A stretch of 64,000 nucleotides of DNA from Rhizobium bangladeshense (GTDB lineage Bacteria; Pseudomonadota; Alphaproteobacteria; Rhizobiales; Rhizobiaceae), in assembly GCF_017357245.1 (NCBI RefSeq), contig NZ_CP071614.1, positions 310,001 to 374,000 of the forward strand. The letters run 5' to 3'. Below the pieces are notes generated by a model. The model ran no database searches, was not told where the DNA came from, and saw only the letters and a list, made by a program, of their open reading frames with translations. This document shows, one piece after another, positions 41,234-52,450 of this stretch. Positions within the stretch are counted from its first letter, which is position 1; each line of letters begins with the position of its first letter. Made by a program: the position numbers and the translations under genes.

Positions 41234-42892
41234 TTACTCTCTCAAAACGCTCACATGTGCCTTCGATAGAATTACAAGATTGTCCGGTCTGACGTTGAGA
41301 TAGTTGCGCCGCGTGCCGCAGACGGCTCCTCCGTCAGCAAAAATCTCTAAGATGCCCTTGTCGTGGATGACTCTCAAATCCGTTGCATCGGCAATGGCCG
41401 CGGCATAACGGATCGATCCGTCGTCTTGTGGCAGATGCACGGAGATACTTTGATCTTCCACCAGGATGGAAAATGACAATCGTCCGGCTTCGGTCGCGGT
41501 GATCCTTGTACCGTCTAGCATCCCGTTCAGTCGGATGTCGATGGACGCTTCTTCCAGAACATATCTGCCGGGCTCTGCGGAAGACAGAGGCGCATGAGGG
41601 AGAGCCTCCTCCACTTCGTCGGCGGGTCTCATACATATCCTGTTGCGCGCATCCAGCGATAGCTCGCGGGGTAACGACAACTCGCCGGAATACGGCGATC
41701 CGGCAGGCTTGCGGAACTCCCAATTGAAGAGCCACGCAAACGCGATCTGCCTGCCACCCGCCGCGAAGCTCTGCATCGCATAAAAGTCGCTGCCGAAATC
41801 GAGGAGTTGCAGCGCATCGGAGTCCGGAATGAAGCGGTCATCGGCGAAACTCCCGACGAGCCCATAGAGCAGGTTGTGTCGCCCGCTGTCAGGATCACAG
41901 TGTCCGACAAGTCCCATGATCAGCACCCATTTGCCGTCGATGGAAAAAAAGTCAGGGCATTCAACTGCCCTGGCGCCCTGCTCGCGGAAATAGGGCGGCG
42001 CACGGTACAGCGGTCCCAGGTATTTCCACTCAAGCAGATCCTCCGAACCATAAAGCAAGACTGCCGGGTCGCCATGAATAGAAGCTCCGAGCACCATGCG
42101 ATAAGCGCCGGAGGCTTCATCCCACCACACCTTTGGATCGCGGAAATCGTGCTCAATTCCTTCGGGTCGTTGCTCGAGCACGGTCGAGATGCTTTCCGCC
42201 TTGATCATCCGCCGGTCCGGCCGGGCGATCTTCTGTATTTCTCGATAGCCTTTGAAAAGGTCATAGGCGGGCAGGCGTTCCGTATAGAAGAACATCAGGC
42301 TGCCATCCCTGTCCTGAAATGCATTGCCGGAGAATGCGCCTCCGGTTGCACCGAGACGCCAGAGGTTCTGCTCCGGATGGAGGAAAACCGGCATGTGTGT
42401 CCAAGTGAACAGGTCAGGGCTGGTAGCATGTCCCCAGTGCATTGGCCCCCAGTCGCCGCCGCATGGATGGAATTGATAAAACAGGTGCCAGCAGTCGCCG
42501 ATCCTGCAGAGACCCACGGGATCGTTCATCCAGTTGCGACAAGGAGAAAAATGAATTCGAGGCCGCTGAGGATCGCTTCGCAGCCATGTGCCAATTTCGC
42601 TTCTTGCGCGAATTAGAATTTCATCCGTGTTGAATTCCCATAGCTTTATGCCGGCCTCCGCAACGGTTGCCGGATCGTAGGAGTAGGCCCAAAGGAATGC
42701 TTCCGGCCGGTCCCATTCAACGAGAACGCTGCCGGCCTCGCGGTGGTGATAGGAATAGTATGATGGATGAGCTTCGAAAGCGGGCACATGCCAGAGGGTC
42801 TCACCATATTGTGAAATGGTGACGGCCCCAGGGCCGGTTGCCCAGAATTCCAAACGCTCGCCCGAAGCAAATGAGACAATCGCTTTAGCCAT
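41234..42892 (-). CDS. Glycoside hydrolase family 32 beta-fructosidase, cytoplasmic
   Basis: 552 residues. All three GH32 acidic motifs are intact: WMNDP at 121-125 (nucleophile Asp124), RDPK at 251-254 (Asp252, transition-state) and ECPD at 311-314 (acid/base Glu311), followed by a C-terminal beta-sandwich. Unusually, about 105 residues precede the catalytic domain. There is no signal peptide, so the substrate must be imported. The ATG at 42892 is preferred to a TTG at 42904; neither has a strong SD. Last gene of the operon starting near 48604. Inulobiose, sucrose or fructooligosaccharides are possible substrates. Confidence 0.9.
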   Translation of the reverse strand: MAKAIVSFASGERLEFWATGPGAVTISQYGETLWHVPAFEAHPSYYSYHHREAGSVLVEWDRPEAFLWAYSYDPATVAEAGIKLWEFNTDEILIRARSEIGTWLRSDPQRPRIHFSPCRNWMNDPVGLCRIGDCWHLFYQFHPCGGDWGPMHWGHATSPDLFTWTHMPVFLHPEQNLWRLGATGGAFSGNAFQDRDGSLMFFYTERLPAYDLFKGYREIQKIARPDRRMIKAESISTVLEQRPEGIEHDFRDPKVWWDEASGAYRMVLGASIHGDPAVLLYGSEDLLEWKYLGPLYRAPPYFREQGARAVECPDFFSIDGKWVLIMGLVGHCDPDSGRHNLLYGLVGSFADDRFIPDSDALQLLDFGSDFYAMQSFAAGGRQIAFAWLFNWEFRKPAGSPYSGELSLPRELSLDARNRICMRPADEVEEALPHAPLSSAEPGRYVLEEASIDIRLNGMLDGTRITATEAGRLSFSILVEDQSISVHLPQDDGSIRYAAAIADATDLRVIHDKGILEIFADGGAVCGTRRNYLNVRPDNLVILSKAHVSVLRE

Positions 42893-43001
42893 TTGGAGAC
42901 GCAATCTAAGTGAAGTACGGCCGGTCCGAAGACTGGCTCAAATTATGCAGGGGAGGACTTTCGGTCCCATGACGGCGGAAGAGGCCTTGCGGCTGCGGGT
43001 T

Positions 43002-44363
43002 CTATTGCCCAGGAACCGGATTGCCCCTGAATGCATTTACCGTTCTGTCCATCACCACTTGTTCGACATTTCCGGAGTCTAGGACTGTATTCCGTACGGA
43101 GTCCTTGTGCACCAGCACTGTCGTTACGTCGAGCGCTGTCGAATTCCCGACTGAAAGCAATGCGGTTACTTGTGTTGAAAAACAGGCGCTGTTTGGCGCA
43201 TCGGTCCTGTCATTTTGAGGTATCTCGGTGGTGGCCACAATGTGATTGTTGGCTATGTAGTTTCCACTGCCGGAAACTACATTAATTATTACGGGTTTTG
43301 CTGCGGGAGGCCTGATATATTGAGCGTCTATGGTTTCCGAAATATGGTTCGCGATCAGCGAATTGTTGCTGCCGTCAATCTGCAAAAGCCCAAATAGATC
43401 ATCCAAGCCGTTGTCGTACTTCTGCATCGGCGCCCATGGCTCGCGATCTCGCAGAAAGTGATTTGAGGAGACCAAATTCTCGCAGCAGTTAGCAGCAAAA
43501 ACCAACATTCCTGGATAAAAGGAATGGAACCTATTTCCTGTGACCGAGGAGCGCACCACGCCGGAGAAATGGACACTGCTCGCTCCTCGAGGAAATACGT
43601 TATTTGAGGATACCAGAATGCCCGCGTAATTCTCGGCGTAAATTGAGTGTCCCCTATATCCGGCGCCGACGAAATTATTTGCTATTCTTGAGGCCTGCCC
43701 CATGCCTTTCAGTTCGATACAGTTGCCGCACTCTGCGATGAAATTGTTGTCTATTGCGAGCGCATCCGCATCATGAACAGTAACTCCATGCTCCAGGTAG
43801 ATAAGGCCCATCCCGGTTATTCGGAATGAGTCATTGGCGCTGCCGACGTAAATTCCCGTTTTGCCATTCCTGTATGTGTTTTCTGCGTCGTTTTGCCCCG
43901 AACCATCATCGATGAAGTGCAAGCCATCGATGCAAAAGTCAGCAAACTCCACAGAGCTTATACGAGGATTTCCGCCGCGCTTGACATAAAACGCGGCACC
44001 AGCAGCCTCACCGTCTGCCGCCTCTGGAGAAATGTCCACAAGTATACGACTTCCGCCCGGCCACACCTCGTGCCAGTGGGCTAGCTCGCTTGCGGGTGTG
44101 TTGAAACGGATGCTCGACGACGTAAAACCATGCCCAGAGCCAACGATTTTCAGATAGCTCACGTCTATCACGACTTGAGTGACAAGACGATAATCGCCTG
44201 GCGGTATATAGATAACTGATCCAGGTTTTCCGCCGTCATTTGCATCGACAACCGCTTGCCTGTTTTTAATATCCGCAATGATGTTATTGATGACGGCGCC
44301 AATATCCTCACGAGGATTGCCTGCTGGATACTTCGTGACGTCGTAACAATTTTCGCTAAGCAT
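43002..44363 (-). CDS. GH91 family protein: inulin fructotransferase or difructose-anhydride hydrolase
   Basis: 453 residues forming a right-handed parallel beta-helix. DIGAVINNIIADIKNRQ, IYIPPGDYRLVTQVVIDVSYL, GSGHGF, NGKTGIYVGSANDSF, ITGMGLIYLEHG, FIAECGNCIELKGMGQA and FYPGML follow the inulin fructotransferase pattern I remember from Arthrobacter. Those enzymes are secreted; this one starts MLSENCYDVTKY after a strong GAGGAGG and has no signal, so the intracellular difructose-anhydride hydrolase activity seems likelier. Hand count of 43201-43320 gives 46% G+C against 69% in 45061-45180, hinting at later acquisition. Confidence 0.8.
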   Translation of the reverse strand: MLSENCYDVTKYPAGNPREDIGAVINNIIADIKNRQAVVDANDGGKPGSVIYIPPGDYRLVTQVVIDVSYLKIVGSGHGFTSSSIRFNTPASELAHWHEVWPGGSRILVDISPEAADGEAAGAAFYVKRGGNPRISSVEFADFCIDGLHFIDDGSGQNDAENTYRNGKTGIYVGSANDSFRITGMGLIYLEHGVTVHDADALAIDNNFIAECGNCIELKGMGQASRIANNFVGAGYRGHSIYAENYAGILVSSNNVFPRGASSVHFSGVVRSSVTGNRFHSFYPGMLVFAANCCENLVSSNHFLRDREPWAPMQKYDNGLDDLFGLLQIDGSNNSLIANHISETIDAQYIRPPAAKPVIINVVSGSGNYIANNHIVATTEIPQNDRTDAPNSACFSTQVTALLSVGNSTALDVTTVLVHKDSVRNTVLDSGNVEQVVMDRTVNAFRGNPVPGQ

Positions 44364-44416
44364 TGTAATGCCTCCTCGGACGGCGAGAGTAATCTTGTTT
44401 TGTTTTGGCTATGCCA

Positions 44417-45559
44417 TCACCAGATGCTGGTGCGGGTGTCCGGGTCAAAGAAGTGAAGTTCTTCGGCATCGACAGCTATGCGCGCGATGTCACCTGCTCG
44501 CACCGTGCTCTTTGGGGAAAAACGGGCTACAGCAGCTTTTTCGTCGCCGATGTCGGCGATGGCGTCCGGGTCGCCAGCATCGACCCAAGGTGCATCGATA
44601 TTCAGATGCACCATGGATTCAGAACCTAGCGCCTCAACAAGAGTGACCGGGGCCGAGATCTCGGCGGGAGAAGGCCGGATTGCAGCGTCGTTCATGTGCT
44701 CGGGCCGGATACCGAGGAGAATTTGACGGTTAGACGCACCGTTCAGCGAGGGACGGCATTCGAAAACCCGGTCAGGAATTTCGAAACTGTTGCTGCCCAG
44801 GGTCACCGTCCTTCCATTCAGAACGGCCTCGTACAAGTTCATCGAGGGCGATCCGATAAAAGCCGCAACAAAGACGTTGTCAGGGCGGCTGTACAGGTTT
44901 TGCGGTGTGTCGACTTGCTGCAGCACACCGCCCTTCATGACAGCGACACGGTCACCCATCGTCATTGCCTCGACCTGATCGTGAGTGACGTAGATGGTGG
45001 TGACGTTTAGTTTTCTCTGGAGGCTGGCAATCTCGGCGCGCATCTGCACACGCAGTTTTGCATCGAGATTGGACAGCGGTTCATCCATCAGGAAGGCGGA
45101 CGGCTGGCGGACGATCGCCCGACCCATGGCGACGCGCTGCCGCTGGCCGCCGGAGAGCAGCGCCGGTTTGCGGTCGAGCAGAGCCGTCAGTTCGAGGATG
45201 CGCGCGGCCTCATCCACGCGCCTGGCGATGACGGATTTTGGCAACCCCGCCATTAGCAGTGGAAAGGCGATGTTTTCGCGCACGGTCTTGTGCGGGTACA
45301 GCGCGTAAGATTGAAAGACCATGGCGATGTCGCGATCCTTGGGATCGACATCGTTGACGACCCTGTCCCCGATCCTGAGTTCGCCGCTCGAAACGCTCTC
45401 AAGGCCGGCGATCATCCGAAGCGCCGTCGATTTCCCACATCCCGAGGGACCGACAAACACCATGAACTCACCATCCCTGATGTTGAAATTCAGGTCGTGT
45501 AGCGCATGAAAGCTGTTGCCGTAGATCTTGTTGACGTTGCGTAGTTCTATACCGGCCAT
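44417..45559 (-). CDS. Sugar ABC transporter ATPase (MsmK/UgpC type)
   Basis: 380 residues. Walker [10 protein letters not shown], signature LSGGQRQRV, Walker [17 protein letters not shown] switch and a C-terminal TOBE/OB domain with LGIRPEHM. The ABC subfamily is that of sugar importers. Start after GGCGGAGAC; 13 bases after the second permease and 53 before the GH91 gene. Confidence 0.93.
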   Translation of the reverse strand: MAGIELRNVNKIYGNSFHALHDLNFNIRDGEFMVFVGPSGCGKSTALRMIAGLESVSSGELRIGDRVVNDVDPKDRDIAMVFQSYALYPHKTVRENIAFPLLMAGLPKSVIARRVDEAARILELTALLDRKPALLSGGQRQRVAMGRAIVRQPSAFLMDEPLSNLDAKLRVQMRAEIASLQRKLNVTTIYVTHDQVEAMTMGDRVAVMKGGVLQQVDTPQNLYSRPDNVFVAAFIGSPSMNLYEAVLNGRTVTLGSNSFEIPDRVFECRPSLNGASNRQILLGIRPEHMNDAAIRPSPAEISAPVTLVEALGSESMVHLNIDAPWVDAGDPDAIADIGDEKAAVARFSPKSTVRAGDIARIAVDAEELHFFDPDTRTSIW

Positions 45560-45572
45560 GTCTCCGCCTCCC

Positions 45573-46409
45573 TCATCCTTTTACAGCGCCGAAAGTCAGG
45601 CCGCCGACGATCTGCTTTTGAAGTGCGAGTGTTACGATGATGACGGGCAGCGAATAGAGCACGGCCGCCGCCGTCATCGCTCCCCAGGCAAGGCCATAGA
45701 CTGAGTTGTATTCAGCAATGACGATCGGTGCCGTTTTGGTCGCCTCTGACGTCAGCAGCAGAGCGTAGAGGAACTCGTTCCAACTCGTGATGAAGGTAAA
45801 GAGCGCGGTGACGGCGATTCCGCCCGTCATGATCGGAAGAATGACCTTCAGAAAAGCCTGGAAACGGGTGCAGCCGTCCATGCGCGCCGCCTCTTCCAGA
45901 TCCTTCGGAACGCCTTCAAAGAAGGCTGCCATGAGAAGAAGCGCAAGAGGTACCGCGGCTGATGTGTGGGCGAGCACCAGACCGGGAACGGTATCCAGCA
46001 GACCGAGCGACTTCAGAAGCTGGAACAACGGCACGCCGAGCGACACCGAGGGCACCATGCGCGTGACCAGCGCGAAAAGCAGGAACAGGGTGGTGATCCG
46101 GCGCCGGTAGTGGGTCGCGACATAAGCGGCCGGAACCGCCACAGCGAGGGAAAGGATGGTTGTCAGTACCGCCACCGTCAGCGAGCTTGCGAAGGCCCGC
46201 GGCAGGGTCGATGATTGCAGGACTTCGCGAAAATTCTGGAAAGAGGTCACGACGGGAAAGAAGCTCGGCGGGATCTGCTGGACATCCGCTGCCGGCTTGA
46301 TCGACGTCATGAGCAGATAAACGTAGGGCAGCGCATAGGACAGGACGAGGACGAGCGCGGCGGAATTGATCACGATGCCGTTGAGATTCAGGCGGCGCGC
46401 ACTAAGCAT
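45573..46409 (-). CDS. Sugar ABC transporter permease (MalG type)
   Basis: 278 residues with six membrane segments and the EEAARMDGCTRFQAFLKVILP EAA loop of MalG-like permeases. The ATG follows GGAGG and overlaps the preceding permease stop by eight bases. Confidence 0.92.
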   Translation of the reverse strand: MLSARRLNLNGIVINSAALVLVLSYALPYVYLLMTSIKPAADVQQIPPSFFPVVTSFQNFREVLQSSTLPRAFASSLTVAVLTTILSLAVAVPAAYVATHYRRRITTLFLLFALVTRMVPSVSLGVPLFQLLKSLGLLDTVPGLVLAHTSAAVPLALLLMAAFFEGVPKDLEEAARMDGCTRFQAFLKVILPIMTGGIAVTALFTFITSWNEFLYALLLTSEATKTAPIVIAEYNSVYGLAWGAMTAAAVLYSLPVIIVTLALQKQIVGGLTFGAVKG

Positions 46410-47283
46410 GGACCGGCCTCCATATCTTCCAATAGGCAGCGGCAGCCAGAAGCATCATGACGATCAGAAACAGCGTGCCGGAGGCCGACGCCTCGCCGAG
46501 ATCGCCGAAGCGCACCATGCGCTGATAGATGTTCATCGAAAACACTTCAGAAGCGTGGTTGGGACCACCTTGCGTCTGAATCCAGATGAGGTCGAAAGTC
46601 TTGGCCGCATCCACCCCACGCACGATGACGACAACGGCGATCACCGGGCGCATCAGCGGCAGCGTGACATGCCAGAAGCGTTTGAACGCGTTCGCGCCGT
46701 CGATCCGCGCGGCCTCGAGCAGGTCTTTGGGAATGTTGGTTAATCCGGCGTAGGAGACGAGGGCGACAAAGGATGTCGTTAGCCAGATATCGGCGAAAGA
46801 AACGGAATAGATGACGATATCTTCATCGGACAACCAGGCAATCGCATCGGGGTCGCTGATGACGCCCAGATGGACGAGCCCGTAATTCAAGATGCCGATG
46901 TTCCCGACCAGGAGAAAGCGCCACAATAGGCCGGCGACAATGGGCGGCACCATTAATGGCAGCGTGAAGATCGTGCGGTGCCAGCGCGACTGGCCTGGGA
47001 GCGCCGTGAACAGCAGAGCGGCGCAGAAACCGAAGGTAAATTCGAAGAACAGCGCAAAGATCGAGTACTGAATTGTTCTGAATGCGCTTTCCGCGACGCG
47101 TTTCGAGGTGAGCGCATCGATATAGTTCTTGAGCCCGATCCACTCTCGTATGTGGGGAGTAATGGTATCGACCTTAAAAAAGGAATCGAACACTAAAAGC
47201 CCTACCGGGTATGCGACCAGCAAGCCAAGGATGGCGAGGGCCGGCGCAAGCATGCACAGCACGAATCGGTCTTCACCCGACAT
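46402..47283 (-). CDS. Sugar ABC transporter permease (MalF type)
   Basis: 293 residues, six membrane segments, LLEAARIDGANAFKRFWHVTLP coupling loop. The ATG at 47283 follows GGAGAG; a frame open to 47400 has no family sequence upstream. It is 61 bases after the binding-protein gene. Confidence 0.92.
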   Translation of the reverse strand: MSGEDRFVLCMLAPALAILGLLVAYPVGLLVFDSFFKVDTITPHIREWIGLKNYIDALTSKRVAESAFRTIQYSIFALFFEFTFGFCAALLFTALPGQSRWHRTIFTLPLMVPPIVAGLLWRFLLVGNIGILNYGLVHLGVISDPDAIAWLSDEDIVIYSVSFADIWLTTSFVALVSYAGLTNIPKDLLEAARIDGANAFKRFWHVTLPLMRPVIAVVVIVRGVDAAKTFDLIWIQTQGGPNHASEVFSMNIYQRMVRFGDLGEASASGTLFLIVMMLLAAAAYWKIWRPVHA

Positions 47284-47344
47284 GGCGCTCTCCGAAAGCT
47301 GATGATGCGAGGAGGACCACCCCGGCCTCCTCGCCGCCGAGGGA

Positions 47345-48604
47345 TTACTCGAGGATGTCTTCGATCGTTTCCTTGGCGTCCGCCAGGACCTTGCCGACAT
47401 CCGCTTTGCACGTCAGGGCCTGTTGCACAGCTGGAAGAACCGCTTCGTCGACAATTTCCTGATATTTTTCGTTAAGCGGACGGCCTTGCGTCGCAGGAGC
47501 ACTCAACGTCTCAAGCAGCGGCGTGAAATGCTCATAACCGGGCTTGCTGGCATAGCCGTTATAGGCCGAGTTCGTCGCAGCCAACCCAAGCGGCGCTTCG
47601 ATACCCAGGGCATTGTTGGCGATCGCGAAAGCTATGAACTTCTTGGCCGCTTCCTTGTGCTGGGACGTCGACGGAACGACATTGTACCAAGGACCCGGAA
47701 TTGCCCCGACTCCTGCATCGCCGGCCAGCATTGGGGCGACGCCGACCTTTCCGCTGACCTTGGAATCGGTGGGCGTCATCTTGTAGGCGTGCGCCCAGAA
47801 TTTCATCATCGCTGTCTTGCCTTGATAGAACAGGTTCTGAGCCTCGCCCCAGCCGATCTCGTTCACGTTTTCGGGCACGGAATGATCGATGCAGTGCGGC
47901 GCGATGTAGAATTCGAGCGCCTTCCTATGCGCTTCGTTGTCGATGATCACCTTCCCATCCTTGTCGAGGATTACACCTGGCGAGCCCGCCTGAAGCACAT
48001 GCGCCATCCATTCTTCGGAGAAGCTGCCGATCGTGTCGGTGCCCCAAAAGTCGGTCTTGCCGTCACCATCTGTGTCTCGGGTGAAGAATGTTGCGATGTC
48101 GCGCCATTGCTGCCAAGTCTTCGGCGGCGCGAGGGGATAACCATATTTTGCCTGGAACGCTTTCTGTTCCTCAGGCTTGTCGAAGAGGTCCTTGCGATAA
48201 AAAACAACTTCGGCATTGGCCCAAGCAGGCATGCCGATCAGTTTGTCACCGATCTTCGCGTCGGCAAGCAAGGCAGGCGGCAGGTCCTTGCGAACTGCAT
48301 CGGTGAAAAGCGGCGCAAGGTCTTCGACATGGCTTGCGAATTTCGCGTTCCACACGACGTCGATCGTTACCACATCGAACGCCGACGAACCTGAGGCGAT
48401 TTCGGCCGAAAACTTGTCGAAGACGCCTTGATAGGGAACGACGGTGAAGTCCACCTTGATACCGGTCTCGGCCGAGAACTTCTCTGCGGCTGCCTTCTGC
48501 AGCATTTCGCCGCCGCCTTCCACAAGGATATTGATGGTCTCGGCCTTGGCGGAGGCCGTAATGCAAACGAGCGCGAGCGCGCTGGCGCCAAGCAGTTTCT
48601 TCAT
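47345..48604 (-). CDS. Sugar-binding protein of the fructan-linked ABC importer
   Basis: 419 residues; signal peptide ending near ASAKA-E (residue 22), then an SBP_bac_1 fold (INILVEGGGEMLQKAAAEKF, TGIKVDFTVVPYQGVFDK). Family 1 binding proteins take oligosaccharides. The ATG at 48604 follows GGGAGGAAC. First gene of the six-gene operon; its promoter lies in the region of the three operator-like repeats. Confidence 0.93.
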   Translation of the reverse strand: MKKLLGASALALVCITASAKAETINILVEGGGEMLQKAAAEKFSAETGIKVDFTVVPYQGVFDKFSAEIASGSSAFDVVTIDVVWNAKFASHVEDLAPLFTDAVRKDLPPALLADAKIGDKLIGMPAWANAEVVFYRKDLFDKPEEQKAFQAKYGYPLAPPKTWQQWRDIATFFTRDTDGDGKTDFWGTDTIGSFSEEWMAHVLQAGSPGVILDKDGKVIIDNEAHRKALEFYIAPHCIDHSVPENVNEIGWGEAQNLFYQGKTAMMKFWAHAYKMTPTDSKVSGKVGVAPMLAGDAGVGAIPGPWYNVVPSTSQHKEAAKKFIAFAIANNALGIEAPLGLAATNSAYNGYASKPGYEHFTPLLETLSAPATQGRPLNEKYQEIVDEAVLPAVQQALTCKADVGKVLADAKETIEDILE

Positions 48605-48674
48605 GAGTTCCTCCCTTGTTCCGCCGGAAGCACTTGCCTCAGGCTGCTCCATTGTCAGGACCATAGGCGTGCTA

Positions 48675-48732
48675 TGACGACGTTGTCAATTCCAATTGTC
48701 GACGTTGTCAGAAAAATATGTCGACGTTGTCA
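48675..48732. promoter_or_regulatory. Three operator-like repeats with 22-bp period
   Basis: TGACGACGTTGTCA (48675-48688), TGTCGACGTTGTCA (48697-48710) and TGTCGACGTTGTCA (48719-48732). Each begins exactly 22 bases after the last, two DNA turns. The 14-mers are partly palindromic around a central ACGT, as LacI-family sites are. They lie between the divergent binding-protein and lacI genes, so one repressor could control both. Confidence 0.8.
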
Positions 48733-48776
48733 TTTGTGTGGATTACAACAGACCCGCATCAGGAGAATTGGCGGAA

Positions 48777-49802
48777 ATGGTAAGCATCGTGAGCGTCGCG
48801 AAAGCGGCAGGGGTTTCGAATAAAACAGTCTCTCGCGTCATCAATGGCGAGCCCTACGTGACTGAGGAAACCCGGGAGAGGGTGGAAAAGGCTATTCGGG
48901 ACCTCGGCTATATCCCGAATATGGCGGCGCGCCTCATACGATCCAGCCGCTCCAACACCTTTGGGATTATCACCGATTATGTTTCCACGACGCCTTATTC
49001 GGTTGATATTGTCCGCGGAATTCAGGATTGGGCCAATGCGAATGGGAAAACCATCCTGATAGCCAACACCGGTGGTTCGTCCGAGCGAGAGGTGGAAATC
49101 TGGAAAATGTTCCAGTCCCATCGCATTGATGGAGTCCTGTATGTAACCATGTACCGCCGCATTGTGGATCCGGAGACCGGCGATGTCAGCATTCCAACCG
49201 TGATGATAAATTGTCGGCCGCAAACAAGGGAGCTCCTGCCGTCTATCGAGCCCGATGATTATCAGGGGGCGCGAGATCTTACCCGGTATCTCCTTGAACG
49301 GCGTCATCGCAGAATCGGTTACATCCGGCTCAATCCGATCCTATTGGGAGCCGAACTGCGCTTGGATGCATTTCGCCGAACGACAAGCGAATTCGGTCTC
49401 ACAGAGAACGACCTCTCTATCAGCCTGGGCATGGATGGGCCTGTTGGGGCAGAAAACAACTACGTCTTTGCTGCAGCGACCGAAATGCTCAAACAAGACG
49501 ACCGTCCGACTGCGATCATGAGCGGCAACGACGAAATGGCAATTCAGATCTACATTGCTGCCATGGCACTGGGATTGCGGATTCCACAAGATGTCAGCAT
49601 CGTCGGCTTTGACGATTTTCGAACAGTCACTATGGCGCTGAAGCCAGAGCTGACCACGGCGGCGTTACCATACTACGATCTCGGCCGAGAGGGTGCGCAG
49701 TGCCTGAACGATTTGATAGCGGGCGAGAAGATTTATCCGGGCAGTCGAGTTGTCTCTTGCAAGCTGGTTGAACGTAGCTCTGCGACCTTTAGCCCTCATT
49801 AG
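48777..49802 (+). CDS. LacI family transcriptional regulator
   Basis: 341 residues. N-terminal helix-turn-helix and hinge (SIVSVAKAAGVSNKTVSRVIN at residues 3-23, IRDLGYIPNMAARLIR), then a periplasmic-binding-protein-like sugar domain. The ATG at 48777 follows AGGAG at 11 bases; the frame is open 27 codons further up, but those overlap the operator repeats. Divergent from the operon it probably represses; likely effector is a fructose-containing sugar. Confidence 0.93.
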   Translation: MVSIVSVAKAAGVSNKTVSRVINGEPYVTEETRERVEKAIRDLGYIPNMAARLIRSSRSNTFGIITDYVSTTPYSVDIVRGIQDWANANGKTILIANTGGSSEREVEIWKMFQSHRIDGVLYVTMYRRIVDPETGDVSIPTVMINCRPQTRELLPSIEPDDYQGARDLTRYLLERRHRRIGYIRLNPILLGAELRLDAFRRTTSEFGLTENDLSISLGMDGPVGAENNYVFAAATEMLKQDDRPTAIMSGNDEMAIQIYIAAMALGLRIPQDVSIVGFDDFRTVTMALKPELTTAALPYYDLGREGAQCLNDLIAGEKIYPGSRVVSCKLVERSSATFSPH

Positions 49803-50783: not shown

Positions 50784-52450
50784 TGTGGCGGCTAGGTTGA
50801 AATGTCCGCTGTTGCGCAAAGTAGAAATGTCACTTTGGGGCGTCTTCAGCCATTTAGAAATGCGACACTCGACATCTCCACTTGCACTGAGGCAAGCCCC
50901 CGACCGGACCGGCTGGGCCGGGTTGCAAGGGAAGGAGGGGGCGGGTGAAGCACACCTCTTCGGCTTTAGCTTTGAGTCTCTTCAATCGACCATTCACTCC
51001 GCAGCATCAAGCCGCGACAGTGCCTTCTGGCGCCGCGCAAGGACCGCCGGATCGTTCATGAAATCCTTCCGCCGTCCCGGTCCGTGAGCACGTCGCACAT
51101 AGCCGTTCTTCTCGCTGTTGGTCTTCACAGCCGGCTTCGACTGCTGCTCCTGGCGCTCCTTGATATAGGCCAGAACATCCCCCAATCGCTTGTTCTCGAT
51201 AATCGCCGCATGCGTCACCCGCTGGTCCTTGTCGAAGGTCTTGTAGGGCAGGGAGTGCCCCTTCCAGCGCACATCCAGGCGGCCATCGGCATAGGCGTAG
51301 GTCTCAACATAGCGACCGGCCAGACCGCGCGTCACCTCAGTCTCCTCCAGCATGATCCGCTTGCGTTCAAACGAAAACGTCAGCTGCGATCCCACATAGC
51401 GCTGCTCGCGCTTGCACAGGATCTCTTGCAATCGATCCGGCGCCAGATTCATTGGCCGATGCAGGTCATCGCACCGGGCAGGGGCAATCGCAAACCGCGC
51501 ATTGTAATCCGCCATGAAGCCAGGCAGAAACGCGTTGCCCGCCTCCATGGTGTCGATACCGGCCAGTCGCAGTTCCTTGACCAACCGATCCTGCAGCGTC
51601 CGGTTCATCCGCTCGACACGGCCTTTGGCCTGACTCGAATTTGCGCAAAGAATCTCGATATTTAGTTCCGAGAGTGCACGCCCGAACTGGGTCATGCCCT
51701 GGCCGCCTCTGGCGTCCTTCTTCGCCACCCGGAACACCGAATGCTTGTCGGAATAGAAGGCAACCGGAGCACCATGCGCCTTCAGATAGAGCGCCAATGC
51801 CTCGAAATAGCTGAAGGCGCTTTCCGAGCGGACAAAGCGCAACTGCATCAATCTGCCGGTCGCATCGTCGACGAACACCAGCAGCGAACACGGATCACCG
51901 CGGCCCTCAAACCAGCGGTGCTCGGAGCCGTCGATCTGCACCAGCTCGCCACAGGCTTCGCGCCGCAACCGCGGCTGATGAAACGTTCGGCGCTGCTTGC
52001 GCGACAGCCACAGCCCGGCATCAACCATCCAGCTGCGCAACGTCTCGCGCGACACACGCAATCCATCTCGCTCGGCAAGCTTCTCGGCCGCCAGCGTCGG
52101 GCCGAAGTCTGCATAGCCTTCGCGAACCAGCGTCACCGCGTAATCGCGCACACCATCACTGATCCGGTTGTTCGACGGCCGGCCGATCGCCTTGTGCCGG
52201 ATCGACGCTGCGCCGTCAGTCTTGATCCGCTCCAGCAGACGACGCACCTGACGTGTGCTCAGATCAAGCACATGTGCCGCCGACACCAGCGTCATGCGGC
52301 CGGCAATCACCTTCGACAAAATCTCGATCCGCTGCACATCACGCTCGCTCATCGCTATCAGTCCCATCCGCAATCTCCCAGGTCATCAAAACCCGGGGAG
52401 AGTGACATTCTTACTTTGCAGAAACAGGACACTTTAACTTTGCGGCTACA
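50784..52450. mobile_element. Complete insertion sequence (ISNCY-like), 1667 bp
   Basis: Bounded by imperfect terminal inverted repeats of about 24 bases (left TGTGGCGGCTAGGTTGAAAT..., right complement TGTAGCCGCAAAGTTAAAGT...; 17-18 positions match) followed by second repeats with GCAAAGTA and AATGTCACT at both ends. Flanked by a direct repeat TGTAAA (50778-50783, 52451-52456), the target duplication. One transposase gene inside, apparently intact; a recent insertion is likely. Confidence 0.85.
50994..52367 (-). CDS. Transposase of the ISNCY-like element
   Basis: 457 residues. N-terminal helix-turn-helix (VSAAHVLDLSTRQVRRLLERI), then an integrase core with DDE candidates: Asp in ELVQIDGSEHRW, Asp in VAFYSDKHSVF and Glu in GRVERMNRTLQ. 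The ATG at 52367 follows GGGAG by seven bases. No frameshift or stop is seen, so it may be active. Confidence 0.9.
   Translation of the reverse strand: MGLIAMSERDVQRIEILSKVIAGRMTLVSAAHVLDLSTRQVRRLLERIKTDGAASIRHKAIGRPSNNRISDGVRDYAVTLVREGYADFGPTLAAEKLAERDGLRVSRETLRSWMVDAGLWLSRKQRRTFHQPRLRREACGELVQIDGSEHRWFEGRGDPCSLLVFVDDATGRLMQLRFVRSESAFSYFEALALYLKAHGAPVAFYSDKHSVFRVAKKDARGGQGMTQFGRALSELNIEILCANSSQAKGRVERMNRTLQDRLVKELRLAGIDTMEAGNAFLPGFMADYNARFAIAPARCDDLHRPMNLAPDRLQEILCKREQRYVGSQLTFSFERKRIMLEETEVTRGLAGRYVETYAYADGRLDVRWKGHSLPYKTFDKDQRVTHAAIIENKRLGDVLAYIKERQEQQSKPAVKTNSEKNGYVRRAHGPGRRKDFMNDPAVLARRQKALSRLDAAE

Follow-up and report, generated by a model that had tools for sequence, protein, structure and literature searches.

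Difructose anhydride III (DFA III) is a cyclic fructose disaccharide released by inulin-degrading soil bacteria such as Arthrobacter, for which an enzymatic DFA III pathway has been described (PMC4640833). In 2024, a cluster from Blautia was reported that encodes a DFA III hydrolase (DFA-IIIase) of glycoside hydrolase family GH91, a GH32 enzyme and an ATP-binding cassette (ABC) transporter. Both enzymes were tested, and a three-step pathway was proposed that is the same as the one considered here (PMC11538131). The Blautia DFA-IIIase interconverts DFA III and inulobiose, with an equilibrium of 59:41 favoring DFA III, and does not hydrolyze DFA I (data not shown in that paper; PMC11538131). Here we describe a related locus of Rhizobium bangladeshense, at positions 41234-49802 of a 64,000-nucleotide stretch of DNA (the window), which corresponds to bases 310001-374000 of contig C3 (461,863 bp) in a genome of six contigs and 6.35 Mb. 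Sequence comparisons make it probable that this locus serves the catabolism of DFA III (di-fructofuranose 1,2':2,3'-dianhydride) under repression by LacI.

Organization of the locus

The region holds seven intact open reading frames (ORFs), all at the coordinates given by a first-pass annotation made from the letters alone. That annotation had described a minus-strand operon for a binding protein, two permeases, an ATPase, a GH91 protein and a GH32 enzyme, transcribed in that order, with a divergent LacI gene. Pfam and NCBIfam bear out this layout by assigning SBP_bac_1, two BPD_transp_1, a UgpC/MalK-type ATPase, Glyco_hydro_32N and LacI. Automatic ORF starts were too long in four genes (LacI, binding protein, permease 1 and GH32). 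Their likely true starts, at 48777, 48604, 47283 and 42892, respectively, follow the sequence itself and the way RefSeq annotates the operon on p42e of R. etli CFN42. Signal peptides were judged by eye and from hydropathy.

48777..49802, plus strand: LacI-family regulator, divergent; Pfam LacI and Peripla_BP_3; start per CFN42 annotation
47345..48604, minus strand: periplasmic sugar-binding protein with Sec-type signal peptide MKKLLGASALALVCITASAKAE (by eye); SBP_bac_1, 124.8 bits
46402..47283, minus strand: ABC permease 1, UgpA/MalF type, start ATGTCGGGTGAAGA; BPD_transp_1
45573..46409, minus strand: ABC permease 2, UgpE/MalG type; BPD_transp_1
44417..45559, minus strand: ABC ATPase, UgpC/MalK type; ABC_tran and OB_MalK, NF008653 469.5 bits (cut-off 432)
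43002..44363, minus strand: predicted GH91 DFA-IIIase, no evident signal peptide; similarity to 5zks, D200/E211, lid with C394, lidded clade
41234..42892, minus strand: GH32 beta-fructofuranosidase, no evident signal peptide; Glyco_hydro_32N, 231.8 bits, residues 118-427 of the 556-residue ORF

The GH91 protein carries the lid of DFA-III hydrolases

A PDB search with the GH91 protein gave the DFA-IIIase 5zks as best match (E 7.1e-186, residues 2-452) and weaker matches to the fructotransferases 9j4i (E 3.5e-105) and 2inu (E 9.5e-103). Identity is 63.7% over 443 aligned residues to 5zks, which we take to be the A. chlorophenolicus enzyme (the PDB listing says just "DFA-IIIase"), compared with 47.8% to 2inu and 47.6% to 9j4i. 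The catalytic acids are kept as D200 and E211. They are equivalent to D207 and E218 of AaDFA-IIIase, mutants of which are inactive, and to D233 and E244 of BsIFTase (PMC4640833). Eleven further pocket residues have been termed highly conserved in GH91 (PMC4640833), and nine are identical in the window protein; Q313 is replaced by His, as in 5zks, and F346 by Met, where 5zks has Phe. This last position (BsIFTase Phe346) is M313 in the window protein and Met in 74 of the 76 other lidded sequences, so we withdrew the idea that the pocket Met is peculiar to rhizobia. Lidless GH91s have 43 Phe, 34 Met, 32 Leu and one gap at the same position.

The first-pass annotation had proposed comparing the lid loops of fructotransferases and DFA hydrolases, and this comparison revealed the DFA-IIIase lid and its Cys in the window protein. 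The lid segment spans 36 residues here and 29 in 5zks, versus 4 in 2inu and 9j4i, and C394 within it aligns with C387 of DFA-IIIase. This Cys is kept in 46 of 48 lidded GH91 genes (42 named genome loci and six plasmid stretches), the exceptions being a Devosia metagenome-assembled genome and Latilactobacillus. Without its lid, the Arthrobacter DFA-IIIase becomes a fructotransferase (PMC11538131, citing earlier work).

We built a tree from database sequences P0121-P0240 (120 of 1646 found), 10 from 120 of 2797 found, 54 locus sequences, the window protein and three PDB chains; fragment P0128 was dropped, leaving 187. All 77 lidded sequences (lids of 27-38 residues), including the window protein, 5zks and the 48 genes above, fall into one group with a modest support of 0.607, and none of the other 110 has a lid of at least 20 residues. 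As judged from its sequence, the window GH91 belongs to the lidded DFA-IIIase subfamily. Its position in the tree among the lidded hydrolases, separate from the lidless sequences, makes DFA III the likely substrate and not DFA I, which the Blautia member of the subfamily is reported not to hydrolyze (PMC11538131). The N-terminus, MLSENCYDVTKYPAGN, can be aligned to 5zks from residue 2 onward. No signal peptide is evident by eye, in agreement with the first-pass annotation. Therefore, the protein should act in the cytoplasm.

Plasmid and protein listings mostly call this gene "NosD domain-containing protein" and sometimes "inulin fructotransferase (DFA-I-forming)"; both names are probably misleading. 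We rejected the copper protein NosD: the Pfam NosD model scores 33.7 bits (NosD and Beta_helix both exceed their cut-offs), but with the NCBIfam NosD model the score is 15.6 bits where 300 is required, and the Pfam match more likely reflects a shared beta-helix fold. Correcting these labels matters, since they hide the pathway.

The GH32 enzyme and fructose disposal

GH32 enzymes are recognized by an NDP motif, which holds the nucleophile, and by RDP and EC motifs. The 552-residue GH32 protein has WMNDPVG at 121, FRDP at 250 (RDP at 251) and ECPD at 311. These motifs and the lack of an evident signal peptide agree with the cytoplasmic fructosidase of the first-pass annotation. About 110 residues precede the catalytic domain as an N-terminal extension without a Pfam match. 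The GH32 of a Citrobacter plasmid cluster aligns through this extension too (44%), but for the Halanaerobium, Latilactobacillus and Arthrobacter enzymes the alignment starts only near residue 104. One other GH32 gene was found in the genome. A kinase on contig C1 is 73% identical to a PfkB-type gene that adjoins the R. mongolense locus, and is the likely fructokinase.

Related transporters accompany lidded GH91 genes in Arthrobacter and Halanaerobium

Within its own genome, the binding protein has no full-length paralog closer than 30% identity. Elsewhere, related transporter genes lie beside lidded GH91 genes, with a binding protein that is 47% identical in Arthrobacter and 40% identical in Halanaerobium. 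This pattern is what a transporter of the GH91 pathway should show, and we infer that the transported sugar is DFA III. Structures related to the binding protein in the PDB are remote, with maltose and trehalose binders among them, and are not predictive of the ligand.

Three candidate operators precede the operon

The LacI protein matches PDB 3miz, a putative LacI-family regulator, over residues 48-339 (E 4.5e-189). Any ligand bound in 3miz, the solved effector domain of a close LacI relative, could hint at the inducer. The 172-bp gap between the LacI and binding-protein genes holds three tandem palindromes of the pattern TGACAACGTCGWCA, at 48675, 48697 and 48719 in steps of 22 bp. Spacing of about two helical turns places dimers on one face of the DNA.

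48675..48688, minus strand: candidate operator O1, TGACAACGTCGTCA; exact motif match, overlaps the -35 TTGACA of the putative promoter
48697..48710, minus strand: candidate operator O2, TGACAACGTCGACA; exact motif match, 22 bp from O1
48719..48732, minus strand: candidate operator O3, TGACAACGTCGACA; exact motif match, 22 bp from O2
48660..48689, minus strand: putative sigma-70-type operon promoter, TTGACA-18 nt-TATGGT; 10 of 12 consensus matches, -35 starting at 48689 and -10 ending at 48660

Promoter-like matches over the region number 5, compared with 5.1 in shuffles, which is no better than chance, so the promoter call rests on position and operator overlap. Exact matches to TGACAACGTCGWCA in the window are confined to the three operon sites. 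With up to two mismatches on both strands, the window has 17 matches (six at the three operon sites) where 1.76 are expected, and none of 100 shuffles reaches 17. Across the whole genome, up to one mismatch yields 27 and 32 matches on the two strands against 7 and 8 for a reversed control pattern, an excess that comes partly from counting a near-palindrome on both strands. Only the three operon sites among these 59 matches lie within two helical turns of each other. No clustered sites were found in the genome beyond the operon, and we rejected a wider LacI regulon for lack of evidence. Single exact matches to the pattern occur at C1:3166439, C2:566908 and C3:115761.

Conservation across related loci

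Searches with window-protein patterns found 42 loci in other genomes. The set leans to close relatives and includes three near-identical S. terangae contigs and two from R. aethiopicum. The strict order of divergent LacI, binding protein, permease, permease, ATPase, GH91 and GH32 is present in 29 of the 42 loci. At least two operators 18-24 bp apart occur in 38, and 34 of these have the triplet; the operator-bearing loci include Rhizobium, Sinorhizobium/Ensifer, Devosia, Pleomorphomonas, Histidinibacterium, Maritimibacter and Martelella. Spaced operators were not found in the remaining four, namely R. sullae (L014), Halanaerobium (L029) and two from Anaerobiospirillum (L039 and L043); in R. 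sullae, the operon's upstream half is missing as well. The Martelella locus (L024) has a pair of sites with 22-bp spacing directly before a GH91 gene that adjoins a different transporter.

Three Sinorhizobium loci (L011, L012 and L026) have no GH32 gene directly after GH91. Their GH32 lies further on, has near-consensus sites 19 bp apart, and adjoins a second LacI gene (47-48% identical) with its own ABC genes. We withdrew these sites as proof of control by the first LacI, since the second may regulate there.

Some relatives carry a second, lidless GH91 without an evident export signal

A second, lidless GH91 gene lies inside the operon in Pleomorphomonas and on Agrobacterium pAt plasmids, those of Ach5 (source Achillea ptarmica) and 15-1187-1-2a (source yarrow). 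The Pleomorphomonas koreensis locus (L028) has it between the ATPase and GH32 genes, with the lidded gene after GH32. R. mongolense (L018) and R. multihospitium have a lidless GH91 gene about 8 kb upstream of the lidded one.

L054:16517-17722: lidless GH91 gene, Agrobacterium pAt; no evident export signal
L057:13368-14663: lidless GH91 gene, Agrobacterium pAt; no evident export signal
L028:5883-6926: lidless GH91 gene; no evident export signal
L018:1814-3034: lidless GH91 gene; no evident export signal
L019:1853-2896: lidless GH91 gene; no evident export signal

These proteins group with the DFA-III-forming fructotransferases 2inu and 9j4i (support 0.973). Within this clade of 31, a twin-arginine-type leader is present in 15 of 17 database sequences outside the rhizobial/Pleomorphomonas branch and in 0 of 12 sequences inside it, in a comparison of N-termini that included the five locus sequences. 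Signal-less lidless GH91s are not limited to that branch, as an Arthrobacter plasmid (L058) has one from another clade. On this plasmid (L058:9769-16359), the signal-less lidless gene lies a few kb from a lidded GH91 gene with related transporter genes. The R. mongolense lidless gene was probably once part of a second operon of the same design that has since been deleted, because it is preceded (L018:1500-1850) by an operator pair, a remnant of a binding-protein start with an in-frame stop, and an ATPase end.

No second GH91 was found in the window genome. With no second GH91 and only one other GH32 found, the strain would have no GH91 route from inulin to DFA III, and DFA III would have to come from outside.

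Replicon, distribution and neighboring genes

The GH91 gene occurs in 84 plasmid records, 69 of them from Rhizobium, and also in several Sinorhizobium/Ensifer and on Agrobacterium pAt plasmids. The contig that carries the window has the only minC match of the genome, and minCDE is on p42e of R. etli (PMC9611204). Beyond GH32 lie a carboxymuconolactone decarboxylase-like gene and a TauD-like gene, which share 98% and 96% identity with their counterparts at the same place on p42e. The operon most likely lies on a p42e-type secondary replicon, given the sole minC match on this contig and these conserved neighbors.

The G+C fraction of the GH91 gene (43002-44363) is 0.501, below that of the other six locus genes and compared with 0.601 for the window. 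Beyond the LacI gene, by eye, is a transposase-like ORF (50994-52373), and the Agrobacterium Ach5 pAt has an annotated ISNCY transposase at a similar position (L054:7944-9317). On a Citrobacter freundii plasmid (L055:8486-15253), a lidded GH91 gene is found with genes for a major facilitator superfamily transporter, a kinase, GH32 and LacI, near resistance genes; the transporter is a different one for seemingly the same pathway. A Latilactobacillus sakei plasmid from kimchi (L056:1290-12286) carries genes for GH91, GH32, fructokinase, a mannose-type phosphotransferase system and sigma-54, and the lid Cys of its GH91 is Ala.

Discussion

We propose that DFA III is caught by the binding protein in the periplasm and enters the cell intact through the ABC transporter. 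In the cytoplasm, the lidded GH91 DFA-IIIase would then open DFA III to inulobiose, and GH32 would cut inulobiose into two fructoses, pulling an unfavorable equilibrium forward. Because the equilibrium of the Blautia enzyme favors DFA III, coupling of GH91 to GH32 in one operon makes sense. The fructose would be phosphorylated by a fructokinase encoded elsewhere in the genome. LacI would occupy the three operators, which overlie the operon promoter at intervals of about two helical turns, and be released by a pathway sugar. The strain probably makes no DFA III itself and may feed on DFA III from inulin-degrading soil bacteria or from heated fructose sugars. Gene content, subfamily, catalytic and lid residues, the operator array and its conservation are direct sequence results, and the transported sugar, catalysis, repression, inducer and ecology are proposals built on them. 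The first-pass annotation had likewise placed uptake of a difructose anhydride, its opening by an intracellular GH91 and cleavage by a fructosidase in one operon, and our comparisons support that outline together with control by LacI. Its description of the operon as self-contained was too strong, because no second GH91 to make DFA III was found and the likely fructokinase is on another contig.

Several observations weigh against a DFA III operon. The support for the lidded group is modest, and the promoter-like matches are at chance level. Identity to the window protein ranges from 55.2 to 95.6% for lidded and from 44.7 to 57.3% for lidless sequences, so that identity alone does not separate the GH91 subfamilies; the lidless neighbor in Arthrobacter is 53.1% identical. 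PF18835 ("Beta helix repeat of Inulin fructotransferase") scores 23.5 bits with the window protein, below its 30-bit cut-off, although that model covers a 68-position repeat and does not define GH91. Two relatives exceed the cut-off, P0036 (named Sinorhizobium meliloti) with 33.5 bits and P0114 (named Clostridium sp.) with 32.5 bits, and no whole-family GH91 model turned up in Pfam or NCBIfam scans of the window proteins. Direct comparison with 5zks over the full length settles GH91 membership. Gene order departs from the strict arrangement in 13 of 42 loci, and a nearby ATPase gene is missing in four (L030, L031, L040 and L045). The gene is also patchy in draws of one genome per species, with 29 of 148 species genomes of the genus (own included) and 9 of 394 genomes drawn from the family. 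Titles and abstracts of the open-licence PMC literature revealed no experiments on any rhizobial member. Finally, a fructotransferase-like GH91 without a signal suggests that some of these systems import inulin oligosaccharides instead of DFA III, and the Blautia DFA-IIIase also cuts nystose, GF4 and inulin (PMC11538131).

The activity of the Blautia enzyme on oligosaccharides means that short inulin oligosaccharides could be the real imported sugar. The operon would then take up short inulin-type fructo-oligosaccharides (inulobiose, nystose), which GH91 and GH32 would convert to fructose, and DFA III would be a mere cytoplasmic intermediate or by-product. The Blautia DFA-IIIase acts reversibly and on GF3, GF4, inulin and DFA III (PMC11538131), but the main ground for this alternative is that the signal-less lidless paralogs in Agrobacterium, Pleomorphomonas and R. 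mongolense would have to meet their substrate in the cytoplasm. We nevertheless consider it unlikely for the window strain: no lidless paralog was found in its genome, a DFA-III-forming paralog inside the cell would be a mere detour, and a dedicated lidded GH91 would be superfluous for oligosaccharides that GH32 alone should degrade, from general knowledge of these enzymes. A broader scheme is somewhat easier to entertain but still doubtful. In alphaproteobacteria, the whole route from fructan through DFA III and inulobiose to fructose may have become cytoplasmic behind one LacI, with an importer that takes inulin-type oligosaccharides and with the signal-less fructotransferase-like GH91 that Agrobacterium pAt, Pleomorphomonas and some Rhizobium encode within the operon or after operators of the same kind. 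Strains of the window type, in which no such enzyme was found, may form a scavenging branch that lives on DFA III from other soil bacteria.

The remaining alternatives set DFA III catabolism aside altogether. A sucrose or general fructoside operon with GH91 as a passenger would suit a transporter of the MalK/UgpC class, the low-similarity maltose and trehalose binders among the PDB relatives of its binding protein, and the general knowledge that GH32 enzymes commonly act on sucrose. We judge this very improbable, given that 29 of 42 loci, from a GH91-seeded search that does not gauge how often the transporter occurs without GH91, combine the GH91 gene with this LacI, operator and transporter set in strict order and that in Martelella the operators precede GH91 without the usual transporter. 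We give scarcely any credence to the notion that the protein is a DFA-forming fructotransferase acting on inulin, as its database names say. The enzymes do share a family and catalytic residues, lidless sequences reach 57.3% identity, and some close-relative entries are named "inulin fructotransferase (DFA-I-forming)" or "fructotransferase" (e.g., CB782). We rejected this identity on the presence of the lid, the identity to solved members (64% to 5zks against 48% to the DFA-III-forming enzymes) and the placement in the tree; moreover, a protein with no evident signal peptide would have no access to inulin outside the cell.

The first-pass annotation knew of no such locus for rhizobia. We likewise found no DFA III-type locus described for rhizobia in the open-licence PMC literature as judged by titles and abstracts, but the locus type itself has been known from Blautia since 2024. 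None of the six locus tags looked up for the operon appears in the main text of two papers on the network and proteome of R. etli, and the main text of a LacI-regulon paper (PMC4052901) lacks the terms inulin, fructan, fructotransferase and GH32. If the proposed pathway is true, a dedicated, regulated operon for uptake, present in roughly one in five species genomes of the genus, in several Sinorhizobium/Ensifer and on Agrobacterium pAt plasmids, would represent a testable trait of cross-feeding between actinobacteria and plant-associated bacteria.

Comparison with known systems

The DFA-III-forming inulin fructotransferases 2inu and 9j4i resemble the window protein in GH91 family and catalytic residues, but they have no lid and are 47.6-47.8% identical, and most database sequences of their clade outside the rhizobial/Pleomorphomonas branch carry a twin-arginine-type leader, whereas the window protein has none. 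In another family of anhydride enzymes, GH172, the DUF2961 model, presumably the Pfam family that matches it, found no match in the genome in a search run without a positive control, which does not establish absence. The DFA I cluster of Bifidobacterium dentium is similar in that ABC genes lie beside an anhydride hydrolase and a GH32, both without a secretion signal. It differs in that the enzyme is a DFA I synthase/hydrolase of the unrelated family GH172 and the anhydride is DFA I (PMC8605356). The Arthrobacter/Paenarthrobacter DFA-IIIase (5zks; PMC4640833) is also a lidded GH91 with the catalytic Asp and Glu, and is 64% identical. A. aurescens SK8.001 makes an inulin fructotransferase as well, and thus its own DFA III (PMC4640833), in contrast to the window genome, where no second GH91 was found.

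The Blautia cluster has the same adjacent components, a GH91 DFA-IIIase, a GH32 beta-fructofuranosidase and an ABC transporter, for which import, opening and cleavage were proposed. Blautia is a gut Firmicute whose enzymes were assayed and for which growth on DFA III was shown (PMC11538131), whereas the window operon is known from its sequence. The window operon belongs to an alphaproteobacterium and differs in its divergent LacI gene, its triple operator, the extra N-terminal region of its GH32 and its location on a large secondary replicon. The operon type is therefore already known. Less expected are its triple operator and, in relatives, the variants that carry an additional GH91 without a signal.

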